A stretch of 33,740 nt of DNA from Candidatus Roizmanbacteria bacterium RIFCSPHIGHO2_02_FULL_37_13b (lineage in GTDB: Bacteria; Patescibacteriota; Microgenomatia; UBA1406; HO2-37-13b), in the NCBI GenBank assembly GCA_001789395.1, contig MFZK01000006.1, forward strand, positions 1 through 33,740, given 5' to 3'. The position numbers and the translations under genes were made by a program. Below the pieces are notes generated by a model. That model saw only the letters and a list, made by a program, of their open reading frames with translations, did no database searches and had not been told where the DNA came from. The first letter of the stretch is position 1. The number at the start of each line of letters is the position of its first letter. Of this stretch, positions 6,194 through 33,740 are shown in pieces.

Positions 6194-7128
6194 AGAAATC
6201 ACGTTGCATAATATTTGGCGGCGGCGGATTTATCGGCAGTCACCTTGTAAAATCTTTAGTTAATAAAGGTTATTCAATTTATGTATTTACCTTAGGATCA
6301 AAGCATGAACAGAATAATCTGAAAAATGTCATTAAACATATAAATTTGATAAAAGGTGATTTCAATGACGCCAACTCACTAAGAAAATTTATTAAGCCAG
6401 GCGATATAATCTTCGATTTAGTTGCTTCTTCTGTCCCTTCATCCTCTTTTGCTTCGCCTGTTGATGAAATAAATAAACATATCTATCCTCATGTGAATCT
6501 CTTTGAGGTCGCCTTTCAAAAAAAAGTAAAAAAAATTATTTTTTTGTCATCCGGCGGTGGTGTTTATGGTGAAAAAAAGATTATGCCGATCAGTGAGCTT
6601 TCTTTAACAAAGCCAATATCACCCCACTCAATCGCCAAGTTAACCATTGAATATTATTTACAATATTTTAGCAGACTATACCGAATACCGATTTTAATTT
6701 ATCGCGTCAGCAACGCCTATGGCCCACGACAGATACCAAAAGACGGATTTGGAATTATTCCAGCGATGTTTTTTAATATTCTAAGAAAAAAAAGGCCTAT
6801 TCTATTTGATCATGGAAAAATTATCAGAGATTTTATTTATATTGATGATTTAACTGAAGCTATAGCAATGTCTTTTGATAAAAAAAATAAATTCGATGTC
6901 TATAACCTTGGCAGCAGCAAAGGAACCAGTTTGATTATGTTGTATAAAAAAATAAAAGAAATTACAAAATCTAACATTGAACCTTTATATCAACCGAAAC
7001 GGTCATTTGATGTTGATAAAAACGTTTTGGATATTAGTCGCATATCACATGAATTTAATTGGACTCCAATGACAGATTTGAATACAGGGCTTCAAAATAC
7101 GTGGAAATGGTTAAATAGCCAAAATTAA
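6190..7128 (+). CDS. NAD-dependent epimerase/dehydratase-like extended SDR, catalytic Tyr replaced by His
   Basis: A 312-residue extended short-chain dehydrogenase. The Rossmann glycine motif is GGGGFIGSH (residues 9-17), the active-site serine region is LSSGGGVYG, and RVSNAYGPRQ is the usual substrate-domain entry. The catalytic YxxxK motif reads His146-Ser-Ile-Ala-Lys150 (codon CAC at 6625-6627), so the general base/acid Tyr of UDP-glucose 4-epimerase-like enzymes is absent while Lys is kept. It overlaps the GT4 gene by ATGA and ends on a TTAA that also supplies the stop of the convergent gene at 7125. It may be a nucleotide-sugar enzyme with altered chemistry, or inactive. Confidence 0.82.
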   Translation: MKKSRCIIFGGGGFIGSHLVKSLVNKGYSIYVFTLGSKHEQNNLKNVIKHINLIKGDFNDANSLRKFIKPGDIIFDLVASSVPSSSFASPVDEINKHIYPHVNLFEVAFQKKVKKIIFLSSGGGVYGEKKIMPISELSLTKPISPHSIAKLTIEYYLQYFSRLYRIPILIYRVSNAYGPRQIPKDGFGIIPAMFFNILRKKRPILFDHGKIIRDFIYIDDLTEAIAMSFDKKNKFDVYNLGSSKGTSLIMLYKKIKEITKSNIEPLYQPKRSFDVDKNVLDISRISHEFNWTPMTDLNTGLQNTWKWLNSQN

Positions 7129-9989
7129 TTAATTTTATTCTTACTTAAAGATATGTATACGGCTGGGATCAGTGTTAAAATCGTAATTATAAGTCCAATT
7201 TTAAAAGTCCACGGTTCATATTTAATGACAACTTGCATATTTTCTCCTTTTGGTAATTTAAACCCCCTGAAAGTCAAATTTGCCGGATCGATCTTACCTT
7301 TTTTTTCATTTATATATATCTCCCAACCCGGATAATAAGTATCTGACAGAAACCCATATTGATCCTTCGGGCTTGAATAGGTAAATGATATTTTCTGGTC
7401 GTTAAAGATAGTTTGACTGAGCTTGGTAAGCTCCGGATGATATTTCATAGCCTGACAATTTTTCGACTCTATTATTGCAGTCTGTTTGATATTATCTTTA
7501 TTTTGCTTCATCAAATTAATGATATTTTCGAAGTTCTTTTCTTTGTTTGCTTCATCTTTTGCACACATTGTCTTTGAGATAAACCGCAAGCGCGGTAGAA
7601 AATCCTGATTCTCATATATTTTCATTTCTTTATCATAAATAAGTTTATACTTGTCAATCGTTCTATTTATCTCACTGTCCCATTCAAATCCACCCCAGCC
7701 GCTCCAATCAAACGCATTATTGCCTAAAGGATCGGTAATTAATTGAATAGTGAATTTGTAACTGTTGTTTTTGTCAGGAAATGGACCAAATTTCATCTCG
7801 AACCACTTCTGGTCTCCCGACTTAAAGCCGGCATTGATCATCCTTTCTTGACTATCAATCAACCGTTTGTTTATAAATATTTTAGCCGTTAGTTTAACTC
7901 CGTTACCTTTTTGATTACCAAATGAACCTTGGGCTGTAGCGGGATAAATATATAAATAACTTGCTCCTCTCGGCTTAACTAAAACAGCTTTAATATCATT
8001 GGGGGCATGCTCAAATAATACTGATCTTGATAGTCTATTTATGTCAAATGTCGCCTCGCCAACATATTGTTTCTTTGGATTTTGTCTTAAGATTTCTTTG
8101 AGATTCAGATTATCATTAAGTGCTGTTTCGATATTGTTATACGACAACAAATATTTTACCGACAGTAAACTAAAAAAATTATTATTGACGATATCTGCAG
8201 ATTGCGTTGCCTGTTGTTCTTTGATTCCAGTAATTCGAAAAGCATCCGGCTCTGCATAAAAATTCTTAATAAAATAGAAGTATCTATCTATCCAAAGCGG
8301 TTCCAGTATCCGAATATCGCTTAAGTCATATACTGTGGCTAAATTAGGAACAAGAATATTATCAATACCAAGAATTCTAAATGAATGGTCATTGATGCTT
8401 TGTAAGTAACTTATAGCAGGTGGTTTCCTTAAGCTATCACGACGTTTTTGATCCCCATCTTTAGGTAAGTAGATATAAAATTCAACAAAAAGAATTATTA
8501 AAACTATAATTAAAATAATTTTTGTACGTTTTATTACCAATAAACAAAATGTAAGAAAAGTAATTAATATCACTGCATACAATATATTCGGTGCCAGACC
8601 AAATTTAGGATGATAAAATACATTATCTTTGATTATGTTCCAATAGTGATAATTAATAAAAAACAATAGCGCTATAAAGAAAAAATAATAAATTAAAACT
8701 ACTCTAGTTCTTTTTTTAATGAAGTAATGCAGAAATAACATAGTTGAAGTTATCAAGGAAAAATTAATTAGGGTGGAACTATATTTAGTGAATTGAGTTT
8801 GGTAAAAAACTGGGAATTGTTCAAATACAAAAAAGTGGACTATACCGTAATTCTGAAAAAGAAGAATTATTGTCAATCCTAAAAAAAAGATAAAGAATTT
8901 AATTAGAGGATCCTTTTTGTTTCCTTTCCATATGTTAAAGATAAAAATCAATGACATTAAGAATAAATAAGAAATTGTAAAACCAATGTGGTTCCATCCT
9001 CTAACTAAGAAATCTAATTTATCTTGATAACTTAAAATAAAGTATCCAATGCCTCCAATAAGTTCTGGTAATATAAAAATGATAATGTTTTTCCATTCAA
9101 TCCATTTTTGTACTCCCGCACCATGATGACTGCTTAATCCATTGAATACGAGTTCAAGACCGTGAAAATATAAAACTGCACTTAATAGCAAACCTCCTAA
9201 AATAATAACTCCTCCAACGACTAAAAAGAGGACTTTTTTCTTGTTAATATAAAATAAAGACAGAAAACAGACATATATAAAGGAGAAAAAAAGGATAAAT
9301 ATACTTGATTCAGGCATTCCACCTAGCATAGAAAGACCAAGTAGTAATGTTGAGATACCACTCCATTTTATCTTTTTTGTAAAATAAAAATTATTTATCG
9401 ACCATCCAATAAAAGGAAGCACTAGATCAACATTGTGATGATTCATTGCTGGTAAATATATGAAATAGCCTGAAGAAAAAAAGGCAAGCGAACCAATTAA
9501 ACAGATGAATCTATCTAATTTACAACTCCGTAGGAATAAATACATACCAAGTGACATTAACATATAGCGAAATAAGAAAAAAATATCCAGATAAAAAAAA
9601 TTCCCCTGAGTGAGTTTAAAAAGCAAAGCAAAAGGAATGAGAGGAATAAAATATGCGCTTGTAATAAAATCTGCGGCCAAAGGCAAACCCGTCCCTATGT
9701 TTTGATCCCATATCGGGAAAAGACCGCTAAGATACTGTCGTATTGCACTAACCCAATTAGGAACATGAGCCCATATATATGCGCCAGGATCTAAAAGTGT
9801 AATGCAATAGGAATTGGGAGTCATAGGAGTTTGACCATAGGGAGGGTAATTACCCATAACACTAGGAGCACAGTCATAGCCAAAAGATTTACCAAAAAAT
9901 ACAGTCCAGTAATATAGTATTGGTAAAAAAAAAGCAATTAGAATATAAAATGTTTCTTTTTTTGATATATTTTGAAGTGTTTTTTTCAT
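7125..9989 (-). CDS. YfhO-like multi-pass membrane protein (GT-C type)
   Basis: A 954-residue integral membrane protein. The first ~520 residues hold roughly a dozen hydrophobic segments separated by short loops. The first extracytoplasmic loop is long and contains aromatic and Pro-rich stretches. Residues about 530-920 are a soluble, probably external, domain, and one last hydrophobic segment lies near residues 925-947. The ending, with YYPGWEIYINEKK, LTFRGFKLPKGE and VVIKYEPWTFKIGL, matches the YfhO family, whose Gram-positive members glycosylate lipoteichoic acid from polyprenol-phosphate sugars. The neighbouring polyprenol-phosphate-type GT2 at 10101 would be a logical partner. The gene is convergent with 6190 and shares its stop region, with no room for a terminator. 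Confidence 0.82.
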   Translation of the reverse strand: MKKTLQNISKKETFYILIAFFLPILYYWTVFFGKSFGYDCAPSVMGNYPPYGQTPMTPNSYCITLLDPGAYIWAHVPNWVSAIRQYLSGLFPIWDQNIGTGLPLAADFITSAYFIPLIPFALLFKLTQGNFFYLDIFFLFRYMLMSLGMYLFLRSCKLDRFICLIGSLAFFSSGYFIYLPAMNHHNVDLVLPFIGWSINNFYFTKKIKWSGISTLLLGLSMLGGMPESSIFILFFSFIYVCFLSLFYINKKKVLFLVVGGVIILGGLLLSAVLYFHGLELVFNGLSSHHGAGVQKWIEWKNIIIFILPELIGGIGYFILSYQDKLDFLVRGWNHIGFTISYLFLMSLIFIFNIWKGNKKDPLIKFFIFFLGLTIILLFQNYGIVHFFVFEQFPVFYQTQFTKYSSTLINFSLITSTMLFLHYFIKKRTRVVLIYYFFFIALLFFINYHYWNIIKDNVFYHPKFGLAPNILYAVILITFLTFCLLVIKRTKIILIIVLIILFVEFYIYLPKDGDQKRRDSLRKPPAISYLQSINDHSFRILGIDNILVPNLATVYDLSDIRILEPLWIDRYFYFIKNFYAEPDAFRITGIKEQQATQSADIVNNNFFSLLSVKYLLSYNNIETALNDNLNLKEILRQNPKKQYVGEATFDINRLSRSVLFEHAPNDIKAVLVKPRGASYLYIYPATAQGSFGNQKGNGVKLTAKIFINKRLIDSQERMINAGFKSGDQKWFEMKFGPFPDKNNSYKFTIQLITDPLGNNAFDWSGWGGFEWDSEINRTIDKYKLIYDKEMKIYENQDFLPRLRFISKTMCAKDEANKEKNFENIINLMKQNKDNIKQTAIIESKNCQAMKYHPELTKLSQTIFNDQKISFTYSSPKDQYGFLSDTYYPGWEIYINEKKGKIDPANLTFRGFKLPKGENMQVVIKYEPWTFKIGLIITILTLIPAVYISLSKNKIN

Positions 9990-21626: not shown

Positions 21627-22415
21627 TTATTTTTTCTGCATCTTAATCCACGCCTCGTCGAATTGCTGCATGGTTTCTATGGTCCGTTGACTAAAAAGCA
21701 TCGCTTGTAAAACATCCGGAGATACGGTGACAATATGACCACCCGAAGCAAATGCCTCTCCGACCATAACTGCGGTTCTTATACTACCGACAATAAGACG
21801 AGGATTGTTATAATTACCTTCCTGCAGAAAAGATACAATAGCCTCAGTAATGCTTTTTGGATCTTTGTTAACCTCTGATTCTGAACCAACCCTCGGAAAC
21901 TTGGCCATAAAATCAGATCGGCTTCGATAGTTGGCAAAATCCTCTATTGTTCTTCCCCAAAAAAGACTGACAAAAGAGGTCCTTTTGCAGTGACGGGCTG
22001 CTAAAATTGCTAGACTCATCTGTTCAAAAGTCATCATCAACGTGACATTCACGGCGATATTTAATTTCGCCAACTCATATATGACTGCCAAACTCTTGGT
22101 CGTATCCGGAATTAAGGGAACCTTAACGACAATATTTGAAGCTAAGCCATTCAATTTTTTTGCTTCAGTAACCATTTCTTTTTCGGAAGCAGAGCTGTCC
22201 GTCAACTCAACTGAAACAGGCATACCCTTCATTTCGAGGCAAATTGCTTTAATCACTTTGGCGTAATTGCTTTTACTAACACCATCTGCAAGCATAATAA
22301 CCTGATTGGTCGTGACACCATCGATGACACCGGTCCGATTCCATTTCTTAATGGTGTCGAGGTCCGAACTGTCTATAAAGATTGATCTGTTGAATTGAGG
22401 CGTTGATTTTTTCAT
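21627..22415 (-). CDS. Transaldolase / fructose-6-phosphate aldolase family enzyme
   Basis: A 262-residue class I aldolase of the Tal/Fsa family, a TIM barrel. SIFIDSSDLDTIKKW and GVIDGVTTNQVIM give the conserved first strand and TTNP-like turn. Lys98 in IVVKVPLI is the Schiff-base lysine. VNVTLMMTFEQ, SLFWGRTIEDF and RLIVGSIRT are the standard later strands. Length is slightly above the short Fsa/TalC type. Transaldolase exchanges dihydroxyacetone units among sugar phosphates including sedoheptulose-7-phosphate, the entry substrate of the heptose genes at 23478-27477, so a supply role is plausible. It heads a minus-strand operon, and no clear promoter is seen in the 218-base gap upstream. 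Confidence 0.9.
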   Translation of the reverse strand: MKKSTPQFNRSIFIDSSDLDTIKKWNRTGVIDGVTTNQVIMLADGVSKSNYAKVIKAICLEMKGMPVSVELTDSSASEKEMVTEAKKLNGLASNIVVKVPLIPDTTKSLAVIYELAKLNIAVNVTLMMTFEQMSLAILAARHCKRTSFVSLFWGRTIEDFANYRSRSDFMAKFPRVGSESEVNKDPKSITEAIVSFLQEGNYNNPRLIVGSIRTAVMVGEAFASGGHIVTVSPDVLQAMLFSQRTIETMQQFDEAWIKMQKK

Positions 22416-22633
22416 AAAATCGACTCAAGAATTATATAATTGTCATAATTTACTATATTAGGGTATATAATGTCAATGTTTATATATAGACGTTAGAAGG
22501 TGAGAACGTGTGAACGTTAACAGTAAAAGAATCGCTATTAATTTTTACTCACGTAATTATAATAGTTTTCATTACTAGTGAAAGCTATTGATAAATTGAG
22601 CGCGTTTTTTGTAGTTCTAAGGTGTAACAAGAA

Positions 22634-22972
22634 TCATGAAGAGTAGATAACCTTTCCGTATTTTTTGATTTCTGCAATAAAAGGATGATATTTACTTTTC
22701 ATATCCTTTGAAGTTAATGCAATCGACTCGATACGATCAGAAATTCCAATAGTCAATCTTGATAAATTCATCATCGCTTCTATTGGATCTTTCTCAAATT
22801 CGTTAGAAACGATCGCTAAATCAATGTCAGAATAATCGTGATATTTGTTCTTAGCAAATGATCCAAAAAGAATTACTTCTTGAGGTCTAATATTATTTTT
22901 GAGAAGTGTATTGACATATTCCTTTATTTCTCTGGAAATTCCCAATGCTTTTAAGTCAGTATTTTTTTTCAT
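22634..22972 (-). CDS. MNT-type minimal nucleotidyltransferase (antitoxin of HEPN/MNT pair)
   Basis: A 112-residue DNA polymerase-beta-like nucleotidyltransferase. VILFGSFAKNKYHDYSDIDL gives the GS-x-D-x-D catalytic motif (about residues 39-58), here complete. In HEPN/MNT pairs the MNT protein AMPylates or binds the HEPN RNase to neutralise it. The start overlaps the HEPN stop by ATGA, so translation is coupled. The pair sits between the transaldolase operon and the divergent gmhB gene. Confidence 0.86.
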   Translation of the reverse strand: MKKNTDLKALGISREIKEYVNTLLKNNIRPQEVILFGSFAKNKYHDYSDIDLAIVSNEFEKDPIEAMMNLSRLTIGISDRIESIALTSKDMKSKYHPFIAEIKKYGKVIYSS

Positions 22973-23364
22973 AATAGTTGTTTAAACTTTTTCATTAATT
23001 CTTGAGTTGCCTTTAAATATTTAGCCGTAAACGCGTTTGTTGCTTTTTTGTGTAATCTCTCTTTTAAGATATCGTAACGGGCTTCAACATTAAACGTTGT
23101 GATTTCTGCTAAATCTTTCTCATTTTCTTTATCTAACTTAATTTTTGACAAATTTGCAAGACGTACTAATTTATGAATAGGTGGCGGATAAGTATTATTC
23201 ATTTTTAAAAATACAGCTTTTAGTGTTTTCTCTATAGCAAGATGACAAAAGAAAAGACACCCATCAAACCGTTTTAAATTAAATAATGCTTTTGCTGTCT
23301 TTAAATCTTCCGCAGCGCTTTCAAGCCATGCTTCCTGTAATTCTTTCCGTTCTTTTTCTTCCAT
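22969..23364 (-). CDS. HEPN-domain protein (toxin of HEPN/MNT pair)
   Basis: A 131-residue all-helical HEPN protein of the PF05168 type. ESAAEDLKTAKALFNLKRFD is helix 1 and CHLAIEKTLKAVFLKMN is the conserved second helix. HKLVRLANLSKI follows, then TTFNVEARYDILKE, where ARY is the family hallmark. It is adjacent to a complete MNT gene, the usual toxin-antitoxin arrangement, with the toxin expected to be an RNase. The canonical R-x4-6-H site is not clean here; the R and H in the ARYDILKERLH segment are farther apart. A -10-like TAAAAT lies 7 bases upstream of the ATG. Confidence 0.85.
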   Translation of the reverse strand: MEEKERKELQEAWLESAAEDLKTAKALFNLKRFDGCLFFCHLAIEKTLKAVFLKMNNTYPPPIHKLVRLANLSKIKLDKENEKDLAEITTFNVEARYDILKERLHKKATNAFTAKYLKATQELMKKFKQLL

Positions 23365-23371
23365 GTAAGTT

Positions 23372-23400
23372 ATTTTATACTATCAATCCGCTGATAACAA
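23372..23400 (-). promoter_or_regulatory. Candidate promoter of the HEPN/MNT pair
   Basis: On the minus strand, TTGTTA (plus 23395-23400), a 17-bp spacer and TAAAAT (plus 23372-23377). The ATG follows after 7 bases, predicting a leaderless transcript. It overlaps the divergent gmhB promoter region. Confidence 0.5.
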
Positions 23401-23422
23401 CTGAAGCTAAATTTTGTATAAT
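23394..23422 (+). promoter_or_regulatory. Candidate promoter of gmhB
   Basis: ATAACA at 23394-23399, a 17-bp spacer and TATAAT at 23417-23422. The predicted start point near 23429 is upstream of the ATGs at 23457 and 23478 but downstream of the ATG at 23421, which argues against the longer reading. Confidence 0.42.
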
Positions 23423-23477
23423 GTCAATAATTTACATAAAATGTTATAAAGTTAGAATGTTTACATGTTTTAAAAAA

Positions 23478-24089
23478 ATGACAAAAGGAGTTTTTTTTGA
23501 CCGTGACGGGATAATCAATCAAGTTATATATGATATGGTTTTAGGACGGATTTCTACTCCGCTTAATCCAAATCAAATAGTCTTAGTGCCTAAAATTGTT
23601 GATTTATTAAGGCTTACAAAACAAAAAGGGTACCTGAACATCATCGTCTCCAACCAGCCAATGATTGGCTTAAAAAGGATCTCTGAAGACGGGTTTGCAA
23701 CCATCACTGATCGGGTCGTGAATTTATTAAAAAAAGAAAATGCAATCATAGATGATCAATTTTATTGTTTTCATCATCCCTACGCCCTAATTCCTAAATA
23801 TAAAAAGAAATGCAGCTGCCGAAAACCAGGGATAGACTTGATCACACAAGCGCAAAAAAAACATGATATTGATTTGAAAAAGTCATGGTTTATCGGAGAT
23901 GGTACCTTCGATATTATCGCGGGGCATAAATCCGGCTGTAAAACGATATTAGTCACGAACGTTGAGGAATCCGCATACTTACACGAATTTGAGAAGCGAC
24001 TTGGAAAAGTAAAACCTGATTTTATTGTGAAAAATTTGGGAGAAATAAAACATTTTTTTGACCCCCGAGGTTCTTATCACATTGATTAA
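23478..24089 (+). CDS. gmhB: GmhB-like D,D-heptose 1,7-bisphosphate 7-phosphatase (HAD)
   Basis: About 203 residues from the ATG at 23478; ATG 23457 is a possible alternative. A HAD phosphatase of the GmhB/HisB type: motif I GVFFDRDGIIN (two Asp), motif II VSNQP, and motif IV FIGDGTFDIIAG. The zinc-binding loop CFHHP ... CSCRKP is specific to GmhB-like proteins. It removes the C7 phosphate from D-glycero-D-manno-heptose 1,7-bisphosphate. It precedes hddC by 27 bases. The last nine residues (from Pro-Arg-Gly-Ser on) are encoded by palindromic element 24061-24107, so the original C-terminus was replaced or extended. Confidence 0.85.
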   Translation: MTKGVFFDRDGIINQVIYDMVLGRISTPLNPNQIVLVPKIVDLLRLTKQKGYLNIIVSNQPMIGLKRISEDGFATITDRVVNLLKKENAIIDDQFYCFHHPYALIPKYKKKCSCRKPGIDLITQAQKKHDIDLKKSWFIGDGTFDIIAGHKSGCKTILVTNVEESAYLHEFEKRLGKVKPDFIVKNLGEIKHFFDPRGSYHID

Positions 24090-24107
24090 ATCAAACCGAA
24101 AGGGGTT
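24061..24107. repeat. 47-bp palindromic element, copy 2 (gmhB end / hddC leader)
   Basis: The left arm ACCCCCGAGGTT (24061-24072) is intact. The right arm AACCGAAAGGGGTT (24094-24107) has drifted but still pairs at ACCCC/GGGGT. It contains the gmhB stop (24087-24089) and an AAAGGGG sequence about 11 bases before the hddC ATG. Confidence 0.72.
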
Positions 24108-24116
24108 ATATATCGT

Positions 24117-24929
24117 ATGAAAGCAATAATCGTTGCCGGTGGACGGGGGGAGCGACTCCGGCCCTTAACCGATAAAATCCCCAAGCCACTTATCAAAATC
24201 GGTAATAAAAGTTTAATCGAGCATTCGATTGATCTATTAAAAACAAACGGAATAATTGATATCACTATTCTCCTCTGCTACCTTCCGGAAAAAATTGTTG
24301 AAGCCCTTGGTGACGGGAAAAAACTTGGCGTTAGGATTAATTATCTTTATGAAGATCCGAAAAAACCTTTAGGAACTGCCGGAAATATATATAAAGCACG
24401 TGAGTTTCTCGATCGTACGTTTATTGTCACTTATGCTGATATAATCCGGCAACTAGATTTAAAAAAAATGATTAAAAATCACAAAAAGAATAAAGCCATC
24501 GCTACGATTCATACCTACAAGCGTCATGGCCCGAATCCAAAGAGTATGATAATGTTTGATAAAAACGGATGCATCGAGCGGTTTGTTGAGCGACCTTTTT
24601 TAAAGCTTGATGCCCGTTTTCCTGACTCAGTGGGCTTGCTCCCCAGCCCTTCACGAACGGCTGGGTTGCGCACGTCCCAATTCGCGATAAAACGGACATC
24701 AAGCTTAACTCATTCTTACGTATGGGCAAATGGGTCTTTTTATATTTTTGAGCCGGAAATTTTTGACTACATTCCTAAAAACAAACCCTGCGATTTTGCC
24801 AAAGATGTTTTTCCAAGTTTGTTGAAAAACAAAAAAAGACTTTTTGCTTTCCCCTACTCTAAATTCTTTATAGATGTCGGAACTCACGAAAAATTAAAGA
24901 AGGCAAGAAAGACATCTTTTGGAGTTTAA
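24117..24929 (+). CDS. hddC: HddC-like D-glycero-D-manno-heptose-1-phosphate guanylyltransferase
   Basis: A 270-residue sugar-1-phosphate nucleotidyltransferase. MKAIIVAGGRGERLRPLT is the signature, IPKPLIKIGNKSLIEH the sugar-phosphate region, and FIVTYADI the metal-site Asp segment. HGPNPKSMIMFD and NGSFYIFEPEIFDYI complete the fold. Next to gmhB, gmhA and hddA, the GDP-heptose-forming HddC role is the best reading; a general mannose- or glucose-1-phosphate transferase is the alternative. Residues about 163-197 are encoded by a 104-bp palindrome (24603-24706) inserted in frame. Without it the length would be about 235, the normal size for this family. The RBS may lie in a drifted palindromic repeat. 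Confidence 0.83.
   Translation: MKAIIVAGGRGERLRPLTDKIPKPLIKIGNKSLIEHSIDLLKTNGIIDITILLCYLPEKIVEALGDGKKLGVRINYLYEDPKKPLGTAGNIYKAREFLDRTFIVTYADIIRQLDLKKMIKNHKKNKAIATIHTYKRHGPNPKSMIMFDKNGCIERFVERPFLKLDARFPDSVGLLPSPSRTAGLRTSQFAIKRTSSLTHSYVWANGSFYIFEPEIFDYIPKNKPCDFAKDVFPSLLKNKKRLFAFPYSKFFIDVGTHEKLKKARKTSFGV
24603..24706. repeat. 104-bp palindromic element inside hddC
   Basis: Outer arms AAGCTTGATG (24603-24612) and CATCAAGCTT (24697-24706) extend inward with one mismatch through CCGTTTT/AAAACGG. An inner stem CCCAGCC (24642-24648) / GGCTGGG (24659-24665) caps the structure. The region is GC-rich compared with its flanks and is translated in frame. Confidence 0.82.
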
Positions 24930-24939
24930 TTTTTACTAC

Positions 24940-24968
24940 TTGACGAGCAGACATACGTACTATATACT
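24940..24968 (+). promoter_or_regulatory. Promoter of the Phd/VapC pair
   Basis: TTGACG (24940-24945), a 17-bp spacer and TATACT (24963-24968). The antitoxin ATG at 24978 lies 9 bases after the -10, predicting a leaderless or nearly leaderless mRNA. GTAC repeats flank the -10 (CGTAC and TGTACA), a possible autorepressor site. Confidence 0.65.
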
Positions 24969-24977
24969 GTACAATGT

Positions 24978-25247
24978 ATGTTACAAATCATCAATATTTC
25001 ACAGGCAAGAAGTAATTTATCAGCATTGGTACAACAGGTCGCACGGACAAAAAAACCAGTTGTGATTGTACAGGATAGTATTCCCTCTGTTGTGCTCTAT
25101 CCTTACACTGATACAATTGACCAAAGTACATATGCTGAAAAACTTCTTACGATTACCGGAAATTGGATATCACTTAAAGAGCAAAAACAGATTAAAGCCG
25201 AAGTTGAAAATAGATTGAAAAAAAATGATGAAAAGCTTTCTTCTTGA
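24978..25247 (+). CDS. Phd/YefM-type antitoxin
   Basis: An 89-residue antitoxin. INISQARSNLSALVQQVARTKKP followed by VVIVQDSIPSVVLYPY (residues 4-43) is the Phd/YefM DNA-binding fold; the charged C-terminal half is the usual toxin-wrapping tail. It overlaps the PIN toxin gene by 23 bases. As in other such pairs it probably represses its own promoter, whose -10 is flanked by short GTAC dyads. The pair sits between hddC and the convergent gmhA, splitting the heptose genes. Confidence 0.87.
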   Translation: MLQIINISQARSNLSALVQQVARTKKPVVIVQDSIPSVVLYPYTDTIDQSTYAEKLLTITGNWISLKEQKQIKAEVENRLKKNDEKLSS

Positions 25248-25614
25248 TACATCAATTCTCATCGATTTCTTACGGGTAAAGGATAAAAAACAAACACTTC
25301 TGTACAAACTTGCTAAAAAAAATTACACCTTTTTTATCTCCATAGTTACACACAGTGAGCTTTATGCAGGCAGAAACGTATGGAAAAATCAATACGCCAA
25401 CAAAGAATTAGAGATACTCTTAACGGGCATAACAATATTGCCGTTGGATATAGAAATATCGCGTCTGGCAGGTAAAATTCGTACCAAACATCATATTGCT
25501 TTGATTGATGCAATCATTGCCGCAACAGCACTTCAAAACAAACTCTCCCTTGCCACTCTAAATGTAAAAGACTTCAAGAAGATTGACGCTTTAGAGTTGT
25601 TGAAAATTACCTAA
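25225..25614 (+). CDS. vapC: VapC-type PIN-domain toxin
   Basis: A 129-residue PIN-domain RNase. The acidic residues are Asp8 (FLLDTSILIDFL), Glu45 (VTHSELYAG), Asp95 (IALIDAIIAATA) and Asp116, with the typical LATLNVKDF near residue 113. These form the Mg-dependent site of VapC toxins, which cleave tRNA or rRNA. The start (ATG 25225 or 25228) is inside the antitoxin gene, so translation is coupled. All catalytic positions are intact, so it is likely functional. Confidence 0.9.
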   Translation: MMKSFLLDTSILIDFLRVKDKKQTLLYKLAKKNYTFFISIVTHSELYAGRNVWKNQYANKELEILLTGITILPLDIEISRLAGKIRTKHHIALIDAIIAATALQNKLSLATLNVKDFKKIDALELLKIT

Positions 25615-25693
25615 ATTCCAAAAGAAATAACAAATTTGGAAATTGGAATTATTAATTTTACGAATTTCTTGTATCTTGTCTCTTGAGATTTGT

Positions 25694-26308
25694 TCAATAA
25701 GGTTTTATAGATCGAAGTTGCGGGTGAAAAACAATACAATGCCAAACGACAGCTTGGAATGCTTCTGCATAGGGAGTGATTTTATCATCCGCGATCACAG
25801 GAATCAAAACACAGGCGTCCGCCACTTTTTTGGTATATCCACCGTCACGGCTGACAATTCCTAAAACTCCAGCTCCCTTTTCTTTAGCGTATTTTAAAGC
25901 TTCGACGATATTAGCACTAATATTTTTTTCTTTATTACCGCCACCGACGGAAAAAACCATCACCGCGTCTTTTTTAGACAATTGGCTGATTTTCAACCAA
26001 TTGACAAATACACTATCCCAACCATCGTCATTAGTCCTGGCAGTAAGCTCACCGACATTATCTGTCGGGGCATAGCTTTCGATATGGCAAATTTTCCTAA
26101 AATCATTGACAGCATGAGAACAATTAGCCGCTCCCCCACCAACCCCTAGAAGAAATAGACGTCCTTGACGTTTTTTAAGTTCAATGAGACGTTCTATGAT
26201 CTTGTTTATATCTTCTTTACTGAGTTTAAAAAGAAGAGCAACAGCACCGGCAAGATAATCTTCGGTATATTGACCGATGGAATTATTATTTTTGTTTTTA
26301 TTAGACAT
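25694..26308 (-). CDS. gmhA: SIS-domain phosphoheptose isomerase, GmhA-like
   Basis: A 204-residue SIS-domain protein. LFLLGVGGGAANCSHAVNDF (about residues 51-70) is the phosphosugar-binding loop, TARTNDDGW follows, and MVFSVGGGNKEKNIS supplies the second Ser/Gly cluster. The C-terminal AFQAVVWH helix carries the conserved Glu/Gln/His region of GmhA. GmhA converts sedoheptulose-7-phosphate to D-glycero-D-manno-heptose-7-phosphate. The neighbouring kinase, phosphatase and nucleotidyltransferase make this role much more likely than other SIS functions. It is transcribed from a minus-strand promoter region that contains palindrome copy 3. Confidence 0.83.
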   Translation of the reverse strand: MSNKNKNNNSIGQYTEDYLAGAVALLFKLSKEDINKIIERLIELKKRQGRLFLLGVGGGAANCSHAVNDFRKICHIESYAPTDNVGELTARTNDDGWDSVFVNWLKISQLSKKDAVMVFSVGGGNKEKNISANIVEALKYAKEKGAGVLGIVSRDGGYTKKVADACVLIPVIADDKITPYAEAFQAVVWHCIVFHPQLRSIKPY

Positions 26309-26365
26309 AGGATAATTAAACCCACCCTATAATAAATGATGCGATTGGTAAAATCAATGACATTA

Positions 26366-26412
26366 CACCTCCGAGGTGGTCAGATCGTCTATTTAATAAC
26401 ACCTCGGAGGTG
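26366..26412. repeat. 47-bp palindromic element, copy 3 (hddA 3' end)
   Basis: Perfect 13-bp arms CACCTCCGAGGTG (26366-26378) and CACCTCGGAGGTG (26400-26412) enclose a 21-bp loop. The arms differ from the AACCCCCGAGGTT copies by compensating changes on both sides. The hddA stop lies inside (26389-26391), and the last residues of HddA, Leu-Arg-Gly-Val-Ile-Lys, come from it. Confidence 0.82.
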
Positions 26413-27477
26413 ATAGACTTTTGACCCTTTCCAATCAAATTCTGCAAAACGGGGAATCAGACCTTTTTTTTGCATGACAGCTCTAAATTTCTCATGATTT
26501 TTATTGACATAAAAGACAAACCAACCGCCGCCGCCAGCACCCATGATTTTACCACCCAATGCACCGGCTTTCATACCCTGAGTGTACCATTCGTCAATCT
26601 GCACGGACGACACTTTTGCTGATAACTTTTTTTTGATTAACCAATGATCATGAAATGTCGAGCCGAATTTATCGACATCGCCGTTTACTAGATACTGCTT
26701 TGCTTTCAAACCCAACTCTTTTATCCGATCTAATGAATCAATTATTTTATTTTTATCTTGAGAGTCGCCCATCATCTTTTTCTTAGCTTCCCCGTGGATT
26801 TTCCCAGTATCATGCAAAATTCCCGTCTGGAAAAAAATCAAATTTTGCTCAAGTCTGTCAATGGTTTTTTTTGATAATTTAAGATCTTGATAGCTGACTT
26901 TCCCTGATTTGTCTATCTCAAAATATTTGATTCCTCCAAGTGCAGTGATATATTGGTCTTGCGGCCCGACGGGTTTTTGCAGTTTGACAATTTCAATGTC
27001 GGCGGCTTGTCGGGCTAGCATGTCATTAAACCCCCGAGGTTCTATCTTCATTGATTGTGTCAAACCTCGGGGGTTAGAGAGACTCGGTTCTATTGGTCTA
27101 AATCTTGTCAAACCTCGGGGGTTATATTTATATAAAGCGTGTAATAACCCAACTTCAAATGCTCCGGATCCGCCAAGCCCTGATTTAGCTGATACTTCAG
27201 AGATAGTCCGTATATCTAACCCAAGTGGCGGCTGGACGAGTTTAAAACACTCTCTAACGATTGAACTTTGAATATCGGTGTATTTTTTTATTTTATATTG
27301 ATTAAAACCATCGGAAATTATTGATTCTTTCGCTTTTTTATTTTTTGTCAAAAAAATATAGACATATTTATCAATAGCAGCACTTATCCATGCCCCACCA
27401 TGGAGCCGGCTATACCACAAGACATCAGTACCACCGCCAGCTAGCGTGATCCGCATTGGGGTTTTGGTGATGATCAT
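26389..27477 (-). CDS. hddA: HddA-like D-glycero-D-manno-heptose-7-phosphate 1-kinase (GHMP)
   Basis: A 362-residue GHMP kinase. TKTPMRITLAGGGTDV opens the protein, SGLGGSGAFEVGLLHAL (about residues 99-115) is the ATP-binding GHMP motif, and KPVGPQDQYITALGGI plus MGAGGGGWFVFYV are diagnostic of the HddA/heptose-kinase branch. It adds the C1 phosphate to heptose-7-phosphate. Residues 119-150 are encoded by a tandem pair of palindromic elements (27029-27123) inserted in frame just after the ATP loop. Without them the protein would be about 330 residues, the usual size. The C-terminus also lies in palindrome copy 3. It is upstream of gmhA in the same direction. Confidence 0.87.
   Translation of the reverse strand: MIITKTPMRITLAGGGTDVLWYSRLHGGAWISAAIDKYVYIFLTKNKKAKESIISDGFNQYKIKKYTDIQSSIVRECFKLVQPPLGLDIRTISEVSAKSGLGGSGAFEVGLLHALYKYNPRGLTRFRPIEPSLSNPRGLTQSMKIEPRGFNDMLARQAADIEIVKLQKPVGPQDQYITALGGIKYFEIDKSGKVSYQDLKLSKKTIDRLEQNLIFFQTGILHDTGKIHGEAKKKMMGDSQDKNKIIDSLDRIKELGLKAKQYLVNGDVDKFGSTFHDHWLIKKKLSAKVSSVQIDEWYTQGMKAGALGGKIMGAGGGGWFVFYVNKNHEKFRAVMQKKGLIPRFAEFDWKGSKVYHLRGVIK
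27029..27123. repeat. Tandem 47-bp palindromic elements, copies 4 and 5, inside hddA
   Basis: Copy 4 has perfect arms AACCCCCGAGGTT (27029-27041) and AACCTCGGGGGTT (27063-27075). Copy 5 (27076-27123) has a degenerate left arm (GAGACTCGGTTCTAT) and an intact right arm at 27111-27123. Both are translated on the minus strand, giving two Asn-Pro-Arg-Gly-Leu-Thr peptides. Confidence 0.85.
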
Positions 27478-27515
27478 GGTTGTATATTATAAATCATGTT
27501 AAAATATTAAGAACT

Positions 27516-28145
27516 ATGAAAATAACCGAGGTCAAGACACTGCTTTTTCCCGAAGTCAAAGTCATCAAATACGGCCGTTTCAGTGATGATAGAGGTTATT
27601 TCACCGAAACCTTCAGAAAATCTGATATTAATATAAATACAGATACTTATTTTTTAAAAAAAAATGATTTTGTCCAAGTTAATGAAAGCTTTTCGAAAAC
27701 CGGGACTATCCGCGGACTACATTTTCAATGGAATCCGTATTTAGCCAAATTAATAAGAACTGTCTCCGGGCATATGGTTGATCTCGTCGTCGATATTCGT
27801 AAAGGATCTCCAAATTTCGGCAAAATTATTGCTTACGATATGCCGCAATCACCGGGTGATAATATAGGACAATGGATTTGGGTACCGGTCGGCTTTGCAC
27901 ATGGTAACTTCTTTATAAAAGATACGACAATTGAGTATTTTTGTACAAGTGAATACAGTCCCAAAAGTGAAGCCGGAATCTCACCTCTTAGTTCGGATAT
28001 CGATTGGTCAATTTGTGATGAGACGCTTAGAAGACAGTTTCAAGAGTTAATAAAAAATAAACCATTGATTTCTGAAAAAGATAAAGCAGGATTGACGCTT
28101 GAATCGTGGAAAAAAGATCCACGGTCGCAAAATTTTATCTACTAA
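27516..28145 (+). CDS. RmlC/RfbC-like nucleotide-sugar 3,5-epimerase
   Basis: About 209 residues from the ATG at 27516; the in-frame ATG at 27480 adds 12 unlikely residues. A cupin of the dTDP-4-dehydrorhamnose 3,5-epimerase family: DDRGYFTETFR, RGLHFQWNPY with catalytic His69, VDLVVDIRKGSPNFG, WVPVGFAHG, and EYFCTSEYSP with the acid/base Tyr near residue 141. All key residues are present. No dTDP-rhamnose genes (rmlA, rmlB, rmlD) are in the window, while a complete GDP-heptose set is adjacent. In Campylobacter, RmlC homologues epimerise GDP-4-keto-heptoses, so that role is plausible. Confidence 0.85.
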   Translation: MKITEVKTLLFPEVKVIKYGRFSDDRGYFTETFRKSDININTDTYFLKKNDFVQVNESFSKTGTIRGLHFQWNPYLAKLIRTVSGHMVDLVVDIRKGSPNFGKIIAYDMPQSPGDNIGQWIWVPVGFAHGNFFIKDTTIEYFCTSEYSPKSEAGISPLSSDIDWSICDETLRRQFQELIKNKPLISEKDKAGLTLESWKKDPRSQNFIY

Positions 28146-28191
28146 TTCTTTTTTTTGTAACCGACGATTCGGGATCATCCTAACATAAATT

Positions 28192-28276
28192 GTCATTGCG
28201 AGCCGAGTGAAACGAGGCGTGGCAATCTAGTCAAATGTGATTAGATTGCTTCGTCGTTCACACTCCTCGCAATGAC
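28192..28276. repeat. 85-bp CATTGCGAG-type palindromic repeat
   Basis: Outer arms GTCATTGCGAG (28192-28202) and CTCGCAATGAC (28266-28276) are perfect, and inner arms GCAATCTA (28222-28229) and TAGATTGC (28242-28249) form a second stem. This is the well-known dispersed bacterial repeat type. It lies between two convergent genes and encodes the last 11 residues of the HEPN-like protein. Confidence 0.85.
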
Positions 28277-28801
28277 GTTTGATTTGGGTTTTGAATATTG
28301 TTTTAATCTGGATTTTATGTTATCTGATTTTAAACGAATGACGGTTTCTGTCATTGTGGTCATAATTTGATCAATAATTTTTGCTGCATCATTGAAACTT
28401 AACGACCGTAGGTTATGTGGAAAGTAATGGAATACCTGATTGCGGCAGTTTTTCCAGGTATCCCAAATTTGATCTGCCAGGTCGATACCGGAATAATCAA
28501 CGATTTTTTTATAGACCGACCGATCTTGTAGTTTGCTGACGAGATTAACTGACAGCACCTTCCCCAGACGGAAATGATCGGAAATGTAATCCAAATGGGA
28601 GATAAAACCGACATCCAATAAAATTTGTTTCAAAAAACCTTCATAAGCTTTGGCAAATGGAAAAACCAGAAAAGAATAATCTTTAAAACTGTATTTACCG
28701 TCACTCATCACCTCGTTGCATAAATATTGGCCTTGTTCAATGAGATCCTGTTGGGGTTTAGATAAATATCGCCAAAGATAGGAGTCCTTTTTTATGTCCA
28801 T
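28241..28801 (-). CDS. HEPN-like protein, third gene of the AbiE cassette
   Basis: About 186 residues from the ATG at 28801; the in-frame TTG at 28837 would overlap the AbiEii gene. It is an all-helical protein with FLVFPFAKAYEGFLKQ in the middle and CRNQVFHYFP at residues 119-128. Arg120-Asn-x3-His125 matches the R-x4-6-H catalytic motif of HEPN RNases, with the polar residue after Arg that is typical of active forms. I do not recognise a named family. It follows AbiEii by 25 bases, so it is likely co-transcribed. The final 11 residues (Val-Ile-Ala-Arg-Ser and on) come from the repeat 28192-28276. Confidence 0.65.
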   Translation of the reverse strand: MDIKKDSYLWRYLSKPQQDLIEQGQYLCNEVMSDGKYSFKDYSFLVFPFAKAYEGFLKQILLDVGFISHLDYISDHFRLGKVLSVNLVSKLQDRSVYKKIVDYSGIDLADQIWDTWKNCRNQVFHYFPHNLRSLSFNDAAKIIDQIMTTMTETVIRLKSDNIKSRLKQYSKPKSNVIARSVNDEAI

Positions 28802-28826
28802 AAATATGAGTATAGAAAGAATGGAA

Positions 28827-29555
28827 TTACAATTCAATATCTCTTTTTAAAAACATCAATACTTCCTGAACTAGTACTTTTCTCATGATATGAAATTGAT
28901 CTTGAGGAAGAAGAAAATTCAAATCTTGAGTAATGATTTTGTCGGTAACTTTTTTTTCTATAAATTTTACTAACTTGATCAGATATGCGTGACTAGTCAT
29001 TGCGGTTCTTTCTTCAATGATTGACGCATGGTAAGGATAACCCTGTATGAAAAAATGGTGAATATCATAAATATCACGTCCGGCAATTGTTTTGTATTTT
29101 TGATACCGGTCTGTCACGGCAACCAGTTTATTAGCAAACATTGTCTCTTTGGTCTGACAAACCGCATAACGATCAATTTCAAAAAGATACTGATGTTGAT
29201 AAATATTTGATTTAAGAGCTTGATCTATCAGGCTAAGTTTAATAGTATTGCGAAATTGACCCGATGAGTGATACTTCAATAAATAAAATAAAGTCCGACG
29301 GCTTTTTTGTTTGACCTCAAGGCCCAATTTGTGAAAAATTTTATTAAGCTTGAAATCAATTGTTTTTTTATCAGTATTCTTCTTGACATCAAAATCAAGA
29401 TCGATTGAAAATCGATCCAAAAAACCAAGCATTGCAGCACAACTTCCTCCTTTGAAAAAAACTTGTGAAGCAATATCGTGATCGTCTATGATTTCAATCA
29501 ATAGACGGTAAAGTTGGGCTTTATGTAAAGCATCTTCAGATCTTGGTAATATCAT
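28827..29555 (-). CDS. AbiEii-type nucleotidyltransferase toxin
   Basis: A 242-residue AbiEii/AbiGii-family protein, the type IV toxin of AbiE systems. VFFKGGSCAAMLGFLDRFS followed by IDLDFDV (about residues 33-60) is the GS-x-D-x-D nucleotidyltransferase site. TKETMFANKLVAVTDRY and AGRDIYDIHHFF are the conserved downstream motifs. Related toxins transfer nucleotides to tRNA acceptor ends. It overlaps the AbiEi stop by 4 bases. The catalytic residues appear intact. Confidence 0.87.
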   Translation of the reverse strand: MILPRSEDALHKAQLYRLLIEIIDDHDIASQVFFKGGSCAAMLGFLDRFSIDLDFDVKKNTDKKTIDFKLNKIFHKLGLEVKQKSRRTLFYLLKYHSSGQFRNTIKLSLIDQALKSNIYQHQYLFEIDRYAVCQTKETMFANKLVAVTDRYQKYKTIAGRDIYDIHHFFIQGYPYHASIIEERTAMTSHAYLIKLVKFIEKKVTDKIITQDLNFLLPQDQFHIMRKVLVQEVLMFLKRDIEL

Positions 29556-30196: not shown

Positions 30197-31051
30197 ATGC
30201 GAAAAGGTGAACTGACGACAACGCTTGCCATAGTTTCACTGGTAGTGATACTAGTTGGAGCTTTTAGTGGTAGTCAGGGTATAAAAATAATCCAGACAAA
30301 TAGATCAAGCGCACAACAACCTCTCCCCACTCCAAAACTCTGCCCCATGCACATCAAGATGACAATAAAAGATGAACAAGGAAATATTCTGAAAAGATCT
30401 GATCTTGTCCAACCTGAGAAATGGGGAATATCAAATGATAAACAGTTAAGTCAAGATAGTACCGAAGCTAAAAGTAAGTTTACAGGCAATCAATTAATCT
30501 CTGATTATCAACCAACCAACTTTATCTTTAAAGATGAAAATAGCCCCAACGCCCCATATGCAAAAGGAGAAAAGATATCATACAAACTCTTTGCTGATGA
30601 ATCGTACAAAATCATAGGAAGAAAGATACTCAAGTGTCATCCCGGAAATAACAAGTTAGGTTGGAATTGTGAATCGAAAAATGGCGTACCTCTTAATCCG
30701 GAGCCTGATATGATCAGAAATGTTCTTTTAGACGACTGTGGTTTAAACTTTGAAGCTGAATGGATTGTAAGACGAGAATGTACTCTTGATTCTAAAGTAA
30801 CTGTAAAAGATGCAAACACCAATAAAGTCTTAACCAAAGATCAAATGATTGATCCCTCTCTTTGGGGAATCTCCAATTCAAAACAGGATCAAGCAAGACC
30901 TGTTGGCAAATTCAATAATAATGAAGCTGTATTAACAGTTCATTCTGACGATGCGTCTGGTTCATTCGTAGGCAGGGGTGGACAATTTCCCTATGGAGAA
31001 GATATCACCATGAAGCTATTTACTCATCCGGCATATGAGGTAGTGAAATGA
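30197..31051 (+). CDS. Cysteine-rich exported protein, N-terminal part ending at an in-frame TGA
   Basis: 284 residues up to TGA at 31049-31051. The N-terminus is a signal anchor: a short basic start (MRKGE), then about 18 hydrophobic residues (TTLAIVSLVVILVGAF), then an exposed region. Two homologous modules of about 97 residues follow, each opening and closing with Cys: 30341-30637 and 30779-31066. They share an internal WGISN-Asp/Ser-KQ motif. The second module is cut two thirds into its final strand by the TGA, five codons before its closing Cys, although the reading frame continues intact. The product is probably a cell-surface protein; function is unknown. Confidence 0.75.
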   Translation: MRKGELTTTLAIVSLVVILVGAFSGSQGIKIIQTNRSSAQQPLPTPKLCPMHIKMTIKDEQGNILKRSDLVQPEKWGISNDKQLSQDSTEAKSKFTGNQLISDYQPTNFIFKDENSPNAPYAKGEKISYKLFADESYKIIGRKILKCHPGNNKLGWNCESKNGVPLNPEPDMIRNVLLDDCGLNFEAEWIVRRECTLDSKVTVKDANTNKVLTKDQMIDPSLWGISNSKQDQARPVGKFNNNEAVLTVHSDDASGSFVGRGGQFPYGEDITMKLFTHPAYEVVK

Positions 31052-31054
31052 ATA

Positions 31055-33740
31055 GTGCCAAGATGTGGTGATAAGTCAAACAGTCTTGATCATCAATGTT
31101 TCGAGACAAATAAATCCGACGAAGACCCTTCGGTCATAACCGGCATGAGACTCAAATGCAATATGCAGTATGAAAGCGAATTTTATGTGAAAAAAAGACC
31201 TACGGGTAACATCAACCTCAAAGTGGAGCTCTCCTCAGGCGGAGATCTTTCAGGGAATATCCTCTACAACGCAAATGATCTAGCAGGAGAGGAAAATGAT
31301 ATCTCAGGAACATTGACTTTAAAAGGACTAAATACTTATGGGATCTTAAACTATCCTTTCACAGCAAGAGGCGGCGTAGTTAACACCACCCTTTCAAATG
31401 TCCCTGTTGGTCAATACAGTCTTAGTTATTTATTAAAGAAAGAACAGGGTGAAATATATGGTGAGGAGGCTTATGGATCGGGAGACTGGTGCAACTCAAC
31501 AGAAAAACTCAAATGGAGAAAAGTACCTGCTCATGTCTTGGAAGATAAACTATTCAACTCTGCCGGTCAGAGAAGTGATATTGTATATGTTACTCAAAAT
31601 AAAGCTACAGCTTTGCGAGCAGTCTACAATACTACTGACAAGGTAGTGATGAGTGATGAAGAATATTGTGATAGCTGTGGAGGAGATTCTGCTTGGACTG
31701 TTCAAGATCCCAAATGGAAAAACAAAAGAACTCTCTGTATCGCCAGAGGTCCTAAATACAATGATAATTGCGATCTTGAAAGATCACCTGCTGACTTTTA
31801 TAAAGACTGTCGAGGAGAACCACCATCATCCAAAGGTGCTTTTGGCTGCTGGTGTACAAACAGAAACGACTGTAGTAAAGCGGCGGGTACAGTCAAAATC
31901 CCAGAAGGAGATAACTACTGTAGAGAAACCAGAGATATCATCTGCTGTGTCGGTGGAGGCTCACCGGACTCCAGTATGAGTCAAGCTAATAGGTGTTGTG
32001 AAAATGAATCACAATGTAGTAAATATGGATCAAACTGGATCTGCTCGCTTTCCGCATATGAGGCTAAAGACTGTGCCAGTAAAAAGAAATGTGTATTTCA
32101 ACCTTCTCCAACGGCACGTCCAACAAGACAACCTGGTTCTCCAGGACCAACAAGCTCGACCGTCATAACACCAATACCAACTATTAAAGATCCACAATGC
32201 GACGCCGATGGTGGCATTTGTGTAGCCCGTAATATCTGCGGATACGAGAATAATATGAAATCCATAGGGGCTAAGGACTGTAAGGGTGTGGATGTCTGCT
32301 GTGTACATATTAAAGTCGGGGCTGATTTTGTGCCCATGTGTTCACGTCCGCGGGCAATTGGAGGTTATAGTGGTCAGTGTAAGAATGGCTGTTTACCAAA
32401 TAATGAAGTTAGAATTGGTAATGGAGAATGTTCACAGATTAATATAAAAGATTGTTGCGTGAGAATAACTAAAATCACACCATCGCCTACTAGAATTTTA
32501 AGCCGATGCGAACAGGAAGGTGGTAAATGTATTGATAAAACAGATAATTGTCCATCCTCACATCCTAATAAATGGTCTAGCAATGGGTGCCCCGGAGGCG
32601 CACAATTAAGCGCATGTTGCATGCCAAATACAGTACCAACGCCATTCCCATGTGAACAAGACTATAAAGGTATATGTATTGATAGATCAGAAAGTTGCCC
32701 CAGTAATTATCCATATAAAATATCAAGAGGTTGTGGTATAAATTTTTCCTGCTGTGTAAAACAAATTCCATCTCCTGTACCAACCTCTCCCATTACAGAT
32801 TGCCAGGCAGCTCGTGGATATTGCGTGAGTAGCGAAATTGATTGTGGCACAGGATATGAACCGGTACACATGGCAGGCTGTTCTCCTCCAACACGAGTTT
32901 GTTGCCGACCAAAAAAAACGCGGTGTGAAAATCGGTTCGGTGGAACATACCAAGTCTTCGGCAAACTGGCTGACTCGATCCTTGCAATGAATCCTAAGAT
33001 CACAATATACAGTCCCGATGTTGATATTTATATTGATTTAAACAATCTAACTAGAGGTAGTTTTGGCTCTATATTAACAAAAGGTTATCCTGGTCAACAA
33101 ATTCGATTATCTTATTGGTTATATGTTCAAGGAAAATATGTTTCTTTAGGCTCCTATTATAATAATTTAAAAAAAATTACAATTGGAGAGGCCTGCGATT
33201 TATATCTCACTATTGATATACCACAAAATTTACAAACTCCCACATCCTGTCGAATAACTGCTTATGACGATAATACTTTGTGTATTGGGTGTAATAACAC
33301 TGGTGAATCTTGTGTATCTGAAGGGTTTTGTTGTCAATATGGACCAAAACCCGCTTGCGAATTACAGGGTGGAAAATGTATCGACAAACTAGATAGCTGT
33401 CCCACCTTATTTCCAAATAGACGATCCGGTAGTGGCTGTCCTGGCGGTTCACAACTTAGTGCCTGTTGTATGCCTAATAGGCCCACACCGACACCAAATC
33501 AATGCACGCGAGAAAATGGCATTTGTATCGACCGCAGTGAATCATGCCCGGCGACACATCCTCAAAGACAAAGCAGCGGCTGTGAAGCTACAAATCTTGT
33601 TTGCTGTAAAAAAACCAATCTTACCTGTCGTGAAAGCGACGGCTATTGTACTGCTGATGCTAAAGATTGTGGCGAAGGTCAACAGGGTAAAACCGACCCA
33701 AGTTGCCCAAAGGAAATACCTATTTGCTGCAACACAAAAC
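31055..33740 (+). CDS. Continuation of the cysteine-rich surface protein (same frame, open to window end)
   Basis: The frame of the 30197 gene stays open for 896 codons after the TGA and runs off the window. GTG at 31055 is the first possible restart, but no signal sequence follows, so independent translation would leave a disulfide-type protein in the cytoplasm. Contents in order: the end of module 2; a Thr/Gly/Ser-rich beta-type region (31160-31460); a cysteine-rich stretch with a degenerate module at 31808-31948; Pro/Thr/Ser linkers; six-Cys modules from 32198 to 32905; a beta-rich insert (32940-33210); and three more six-Cys modules (33356-33730). I read it as the body of one large exported protein. 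The family is not recognised. Confidence 0.75.
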   Translation, partial: MPRCGDKSNSLDHQCFETNKSDEDPSVITGMRLKCNMQYESEFYVKKRPTGNINLKVELSSGGDLSGNILYNANDLAGEENDISGTLTLKGLNTYGILNYPFTARGGVVNTTLSNVPVGQYSLSYLLKKEQGEIYGEEAYGSGDWCNSTEKLKWRKVPAHVLEDKLFNSAGQRSDIVYVTQNKATALRAVYNTTDKVVMSDEEYCDSCGGDSAWTVQDPKWKNKRTLCIARGPKYNDNCDLERSPADFYKDCRGEPPSSKGAFGCWCTNRNDCSKAAGTVKIPEGDNYCRETRDIICCVGGGSPDSSMSQANRCCENESQCSKYGSNWICSLSAYEAKDCASKKKCVFQPSPTARPTRQPGSPGPTSSTVITPIPTIKDPQCDADGGICVARNICGYENNMKSIGAKDCKGVDVCCVHIKVGADFVPMCSRPRAIGGYSGQCKNGCLPNNEVRIGNGECSQINIKDCCVRITKITPSPTRILSRCEQEGGKCIDKTDNCPSSHPNKWSSNGCPGGAQLSACCMPNTVPTPFPCEQDYKGICIDRSESCPSNYPYKISRGCGINFSCCVKQIPSPVPTSPITDCQAARGYCVSSEIDCGTGYEPVHMAGCSPPTRVCCRPKKTRCENRFGGTYQVFGKLADSILAMNPKITIYSPDVDIYIDLNNLTRGSFGSILTKGYPGQQIRLSYWLYVQGKYVSLGSYYNNLKKITIGEACDLYLTIDIPQNLQTPTSCRITAYDDNTLCIGCNNTGESCVSEGFCCQYGPKPACELQGGKCIDKLDSCPTLFPNRRSGSGCPGGSQLSACCMPNRPTPTPNQCTRENGICIDRSESCPATHPQRQSSGCEATNLVCCKKTNLTCRESDGYCTADAKDCGEGQQGKTDPSCPKEIPICCNTK
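32198..33730 (+). repeat. Tandem six-cysteine modules ending in CC
   Basis: Eight coding modules: 32198-32302, 32339-32458, 32507-32620, 32651-32755, 32801-32905, 33356-33469, 33503-33607 and 33626-33730. The consensus is C-x6-C-x6-C-x11/12-C-x5-8-CC, often with Gly-x-Cys at the second Cys and Gly just before the fourth. The second copy is irregular (x12, x3, x12, x7). Most are joined by short Pro/Thr/Ser linkers. The cysteine order resembles beta-defensins and big defensins. Confidence 0.85.

Follow-up and report, generated by a model that had tools for sequence, protein, structure and literature searches.

A surface-protein gene at the contig end

The stretch analysed here (the window) comprises 33,740 nucleotides, contig positions 1–33,740 of a contig of 34,325 bases, and it ends inside a gene for a large surface protein. 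Within the window the frame with the modules described below occupies 31055–33739 (+), and it goes on to contig position 34324. Its start is not at 31055 but upstream: 30197–31051 (+), a 284-aa frame, lies in the same frame with one TGA between, so that the protein is bigger than had been noted, beginning at 30197 and extending past the window until the contig stops. The product of 30197–31051 has a hydrophobic signal-anchor (residues 5–23, 30209–30265, +; a predicted membrane anchor/signal with values up to 2.28 in a hydropathy scan), followed by Cys-containing repeats, and ends at the in-frame TGA. A similar N-terminal anchor occurs in a 1,140-aa protein of the same genome (contig C13, 3984–7406) which, judged by eye, has a phosphoesterase-like middle and a dockerin-like end. 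Upstream of the surface-protein gene, 21627–29555 carries surface-sugar genes (NTP transferase, HAD phosphatase, SIS, GHMP kinase and dTDP-sugar epimerase) together with a HEPN/nucleotidyltransferase pair and an AbiEii-type gene.

The TGA at 31049–31051 (+) is the only stop between the two parts of the gene, and it stands where the preceding repeat has a Gly (SYKIIGRKILKC versus AYEVVK*IVPRC). Because other genes in the window end in TGA as an ordinary stop, we ruled out recoding to Gly and read this codon as a nonsense codon or an assembly/sequencing error; the gene may thus be broken in this genome. If the gene were decaying, the full-length protein would no longer be made in this strain, as a normal stop codon in place of the repeat's Gly might indicate, but the 3.3 kb past the TGA are still open with the Cys framework intact, and a single-base assembly error is equally likely; we consider decay rather unlikely.

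Tandem six-cysteine modules

The frame 31055–33739 encodes seven regular six-Cys modules (C-C-C-C-CC) and one long-loop variant. The regular modules share the pattern C-x6/7-C-x5/6-C-x11/13-C-x5/8-CC, and all seven have a Gly two residues ahead of Cys2. Module 1 (32198–32302, +; C-x6-C-x5-C-x13-C-x5-CC), module 3 (32507–32620, +; C-x6-C-x6-C-x12-C-x8-CC), module 4 (32651–32755, +; C-x7-C-x6-C-x11-C-x5-CC) and module 5 (32801–32905, +; C-x6-C-x6-C-x11-C-x6-CC) were each found by both pattern and profile. Module 2 (32339–32458, +), seen in the translation and not matched by the module profile, is the variant, C-x12-C-x3-C-x12-C-x7-CC. The last three modules repeat modules 3, 4 and 5 in identical order: module 6 (33356–33469, +; C-x6-C-x6-C-x12-C-x8-CC) is 71% identical to module 3, module 7 (33503–33607, +; C-x6-C-x6-C-x11-C-x6-CC) repeats module 4, and module 8 (33626–33730, +; again C-x6-C-x6-C-x11-C-x6-CC), supported by pattern, profile and super-repeat alignment, repeats module 5.

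The super-repeat alignment shows that each of these triplets is followed by the same domain of about 115 residues, giving a unit of about 284 residues (three modules plus the domain) that is present twice. The first copy of this spacer domain (FGGTYQVFGKLADSIL...CDLYLTIDIP; 32924–33247, +) comes after modules 3–5; beyond the window, the frame crosses a run of N and enters the second.

When residues 376–895 (56 Cys) were permuted, the shuffles averaged 0.12 patterns, with 3 as the highest count in 20,000 trials, versus 7 observed; the module array and its spacing are therefore far beyond chance, which confirms the tandem six-Cys modules that the first-pass annotation had described. Its count of at least eight modules survives as seven regular ones and an eighth with a first loop of x12, and the extent that it gave, 32198–33730, does contain modules throughout but cuts short an array that continues beyond 33730, past the window. 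The degenerate ninth copy that it had proposed at 31808–31948 (+) fared worse: the seven Cys of this stretch are ordered differently (x12,x1,x5,x15,x7,CC), the module profile does not recognise it, and any relationship to the modules would be remote at most.

The same protein has a further Cys-rich stretch at 31994–32098 (CCENESQCSKYGSNWICS...CASKKKC). Elsewhere in the genome, a 762-aa anchored protein (on contig C3; locus positions 6492–8780, -) carries six modules of another framework, C-x6-C-x11-C-x9-CC, which differs from the window's modules in having no Cys3 and bears the signature CYRPxPTGWD..C..GDVxHWCCP; the window's protein has one such module too, at its end (contig about 34.2 kb).

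Predicted fold of the modules

AlphaFold2 predicted module 7 (33503–33607; seven window sequences) as a short helix and three strands (H2–5, E9–12, E23–25, E34–38) with a pLDDT of 87.5, a value reached by one model while the other four of five were near 60. For module 3 (32507–32620; eleven sequences) the elements came in the same order with a pLDDT of 81.6, and four models had at least 75. In Foldseek searches against the PDB, module 7 had six matches, namely five chains of alpha-defensins plus the coral protein Hact-SCRiP1, and module 3 had eight, of which five were alpha-defensins; for both modules E ranged from 3.7 to 9.4 and the TM scores of the defensins from 0.26 to 0.45, none of them significant. 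Viral models searched in the same way with Foldseek yielded nothing meaningful.

Searching all PDB sequences with a profile of 15 modules returned six matches, five of them beta-defensin-fold chains: crotamine (E 0.13), gallinacin-7 (0.22), gallinacin-11 (0.56 and 8.1) and DLP-2 (2.1), where we take crotamine and DLP-2 to have the beta-defensin fold. The sixth was a crystallin (E 1.1). As a control, a genuine avian beta-defensin domain reached other beta-defensins at E 0.36–0.96, that is, no better than the modules did, whose E-values are therefore typical within the beta-defensin family. Two Cys-preserving shuffled families searched against the PDB matched no defensin.

In Pfam, four of the five families touched were defensins, all below cut-off (best E 0.0092). 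PF00711 scored the modules at 13–15 bits (module 7, E 0.02–0.09), short of its gathering score of 21 bits, and Cys-preserving shuffles touched some Pfam defensin families too. Profile–profile alignment (hhalign) with seven beta-defensin-fold sequences gave a probability of 85%, which should not be taken at face value since the module's own hits had supplied four of these seven; none of 400 shuffles reached the score. When the reference was limited to human beta-defensins 1–3, a choice that owed nothing to the hits, the real score was reached in 10 of 200 column permutations.

These results could also be read as a generic six-Cys extracellular module with a fold unrelated to trans-defensins, whose likeness comes from the Cys framework alone, by convergence on C..GxC..C..C..CC. 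The sub-significant level of every score, the Pfam behaviour of the shuffles, the weak hhalign result against human beta-defensins 1–3 and the similar framework of clip domains would all fit such a module. At the same time, the shuffled families lose all defensins in the PDB search, no shuffle reaches the profile–profile score (against a reference partly chosen from hits), two modules are predicted with the same topology, and Foldseek, free to match anything in the PDB, returned defensins for the most part. We consider the generic module possible, though on the improbable side.

A trans-defensin-like fold is, with all scores sub-significant, the best reading of the modules, though not proven, and their kinship with beta-defensins is likewise unproven; the modules look more like animal beta-defensins than like any other solved structure. 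The defensin fold proposed in the first-pass annotation is supported in part, by the framework and by the helix and three strands predicted for two modules, and the fold search that it had suggested did point mainly to alpha-defensins (Foldseek) and beta-defensin-fold chains (PDB profile), none at a significant score. Its view of module 1 as closest to big defensins falls away, as loop lengths vary freely across the family and nothing sets that module apart.

Related modules in other Patescibacteria

Modules related to those of the window are patchy in Patescibacteria and sit on unrelated surface proteins. The profile matched 4 of 373 genomes across the class (own genome counted), 2 of 380 in a sample of the phylum, and 2 of 286 in the class of Ca. 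Uhrbacteria SJ814. A narrower module alignment found only the Ca. Uhrbacteria record in the genome collection, and the whole protein as query found no relative there. In its own genome, the module profile gave no further copy outside the surface protein, and no member of the module family was found in the viral contigs searched. Two matches were discarded: a short frame with stops, put down to chance (G524), and, likewise, one with an internal stop (G066).

The matches sit on pilin-like, NAGPA, Cys-rich and stalk proteins. In Ca. Uhrbacteria SJ814 (G605), three adjacent T4SS-pilin-like genes (PF18895) carry one to three modules each, and a further genome (G921) has a T4SS-pilin-like protein (PF18895) with the module; among the Ca. 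Uhrbacteria modules the spacing x6,x3,x9,x8 occurs. The SJ814 gene group (locus 1231–3480, -) stems partly from recent duplication. A 409-aa protein joins an NAGPA phosphodiester glycosidase to the module (G357), and a 611-aa Cys-rich protein has a related module (G257). A genome of the same order (G022) has a 617-aa Pro/Thr stalk protein carrying C-x6-C-x4-C-x11-C-x6-CC. The neighbour of the latter, a 296-aa protein, contains C-x6-C-x5-C-x22-C-x10-CC, a module of clip length, and this suggests that a single module occurs in forms with different loop lengths. The cell had been described as CPR-like from its DNA alone, which agrees with its place in the Patescibacteria, a phylum that it has in common with Ca. 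Uhrbacteria.

Possible role at the cell surface

The first-pass annotation had suggested looking for disulfide-forming enzymes, and the genome does encode VKOR and three DsbA-like frames, which makes extracytoplasmic disulfides plausible. The gene of this tiny-genome Patescibacterium would encode a long protein that is secreted, anchored in the membrane and displayed at the surface. Modules of about 35 residues are strung along its outer part; three disulfides probably close each module, which is predicted to fold in a trans-defensin-like way into a short helix and a three-stranded antiparallel sheet. Pro/Thr/Ser linkers would join the modules, interrupted within the duplicated unit by the domain of about 115 residues, and the VKOR/Dsb system would form the disulfides outside the membrane. 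The array might then form a stiff fibre that resists proteases and serves for binding or adhesion, as would fit an epibiotic life. The modules stand in tandem between Pro/Thr linkers on an anchored protein and recur on pilin-like, stalk and enzyme proteins, all of which suggests a robust module for binding at the surface; from this we infer a binding or adhesion role. To the explanation as a whole, a membrane-anchored secreted protein with trans-defensin-like modules forming a binding or adhesive fibre, we give an even chance.

Defensin-like peptides that kill or block channels, displayed or released, against host or competitor cells might be suggested by the framework and by the T4SS-pilin-like proteins that carry modules in relatives. 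The net charge of the window's modules (-3 to +1, near-neutral or acidic) speaks against a membrane-lysing role, however, the protein is large and anchored, and one relative has the modules joined to an enzyme (G357); we hold such peptides to be very improbable. The attack on a host as antimicrobial peptide that had been proposed for the array is for the same reason of charge unlikely, and a released antimicrobial peptide is disfavoured relative to a binding or adhesive fibre. The modules could instead inhibit enzymes or bind ligands, like the tick carboxypeptidase inhibitor and rusticalin-like proteins. The repeats of rusticalin (Cx6Cx6-7Cx8Cx7CC; PMC6339383) come near the window's module, and in one relative the module is linked to an enzyme, but the tick inhibitor is absent from the PDB profile matches and the presence of eight copies points to avidity or a spacer role rather than to an active-site plug, which makes this role unlikely.

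How ultrasmall episymbionts identify and bind their hosts has been described as largely unknown (PMC12206443). A bacterial trans-defensin-like module that is not cationic and stands in tandem on surface and pilin-like proteins, in cells presumed to be epibionts, would offer a specific candidate for the poorly known surface chemistry through which Patescibacteria and their hosts make contact.

Comparison with known systems

Clip domains of insect serine proteases resemble the modules in having six Cys ending in CC and GxC at Cys2. Their Cys3–Cys4 loop has 20 or more residues, versus x11–13 in the modules, and hhalign aligned 8 columns at a probability of 1.7%, so we rejected membership. The bacterial cis-defensins actifensin and xanthusin (PMC11561630) are likewise bacterial, disulfide-rich and named defensins, but they are small secreted peptides of the cis (CS-alpha-beta) type with the framework CX(2,18)CX3CX(2,12)CX(4,17)CXC; the modules end in CC, not CXC, and do not belong with them.

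The tick carboxypeptidase inhibitor and rusticalin are, like the window's protein, tandem defensin-like repeats and not free peptides, and the rusticalin repeats have been matched to the beta-defensin fold and to the tick inhibitor (PMC6339383). In contrast to the window's protein, these are animal proteins with two repeats, and rusticalin adds an MD peptidase domain.

Beta-defensins (PF00711), AvBD7/AvBD11, crotamine and platypus DLP have in common with the modules the order C-C-C-C-CC and the Gly before Cys2; peptides of the beta-defensin fold have the helix and three strands also predicted in the modules, and are their nearest PDB sequences by profile. The spacing differs: beta-defensins have about x6,x3-5,x9-10,x6,CC, with a Cys2–Cys3 loop of 3–5, while the window's modules mostly have x6,x6,x11-12,x5-8, and only the relatives in G022 (x6,x4,x11,x6) and Ca. 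Uhrbacteria (x6,x3,x9,x8) approach it. Beta-defensins, whose disulfides pair 1–5, 2–4 and 3–6 and whose free peptides are antimicrobial, are cationic. The window's modules are not; they follow one another along a large surface protein of a bacterium and score below the Pfam cut-off. Given their charge, Pfam scores and loop lengths, we do not file the modules as beta-defensins; the likeness in framework and predicted fold is a strong lead.

Defensins described from bacteria are cis only (PMC11561630), and trans-defensins are stated to have arisen exclusively in animals (PMC7203481). Our literature search found no paper joining "defensin-like" with "candidate phyla radiation". That the window holds a true trans-defensin fold outside animals, a tandem surface module of Patescibacteria used on pilin-like, enzymatic and stalk proteins and perhaps akin by descent to animal beta-defensin-like repeats, is a tentative proposal that we think may well fail. 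If true, a bacterial trans-defensin-like module would mean either convergence on the fold or a greater age of the fold.
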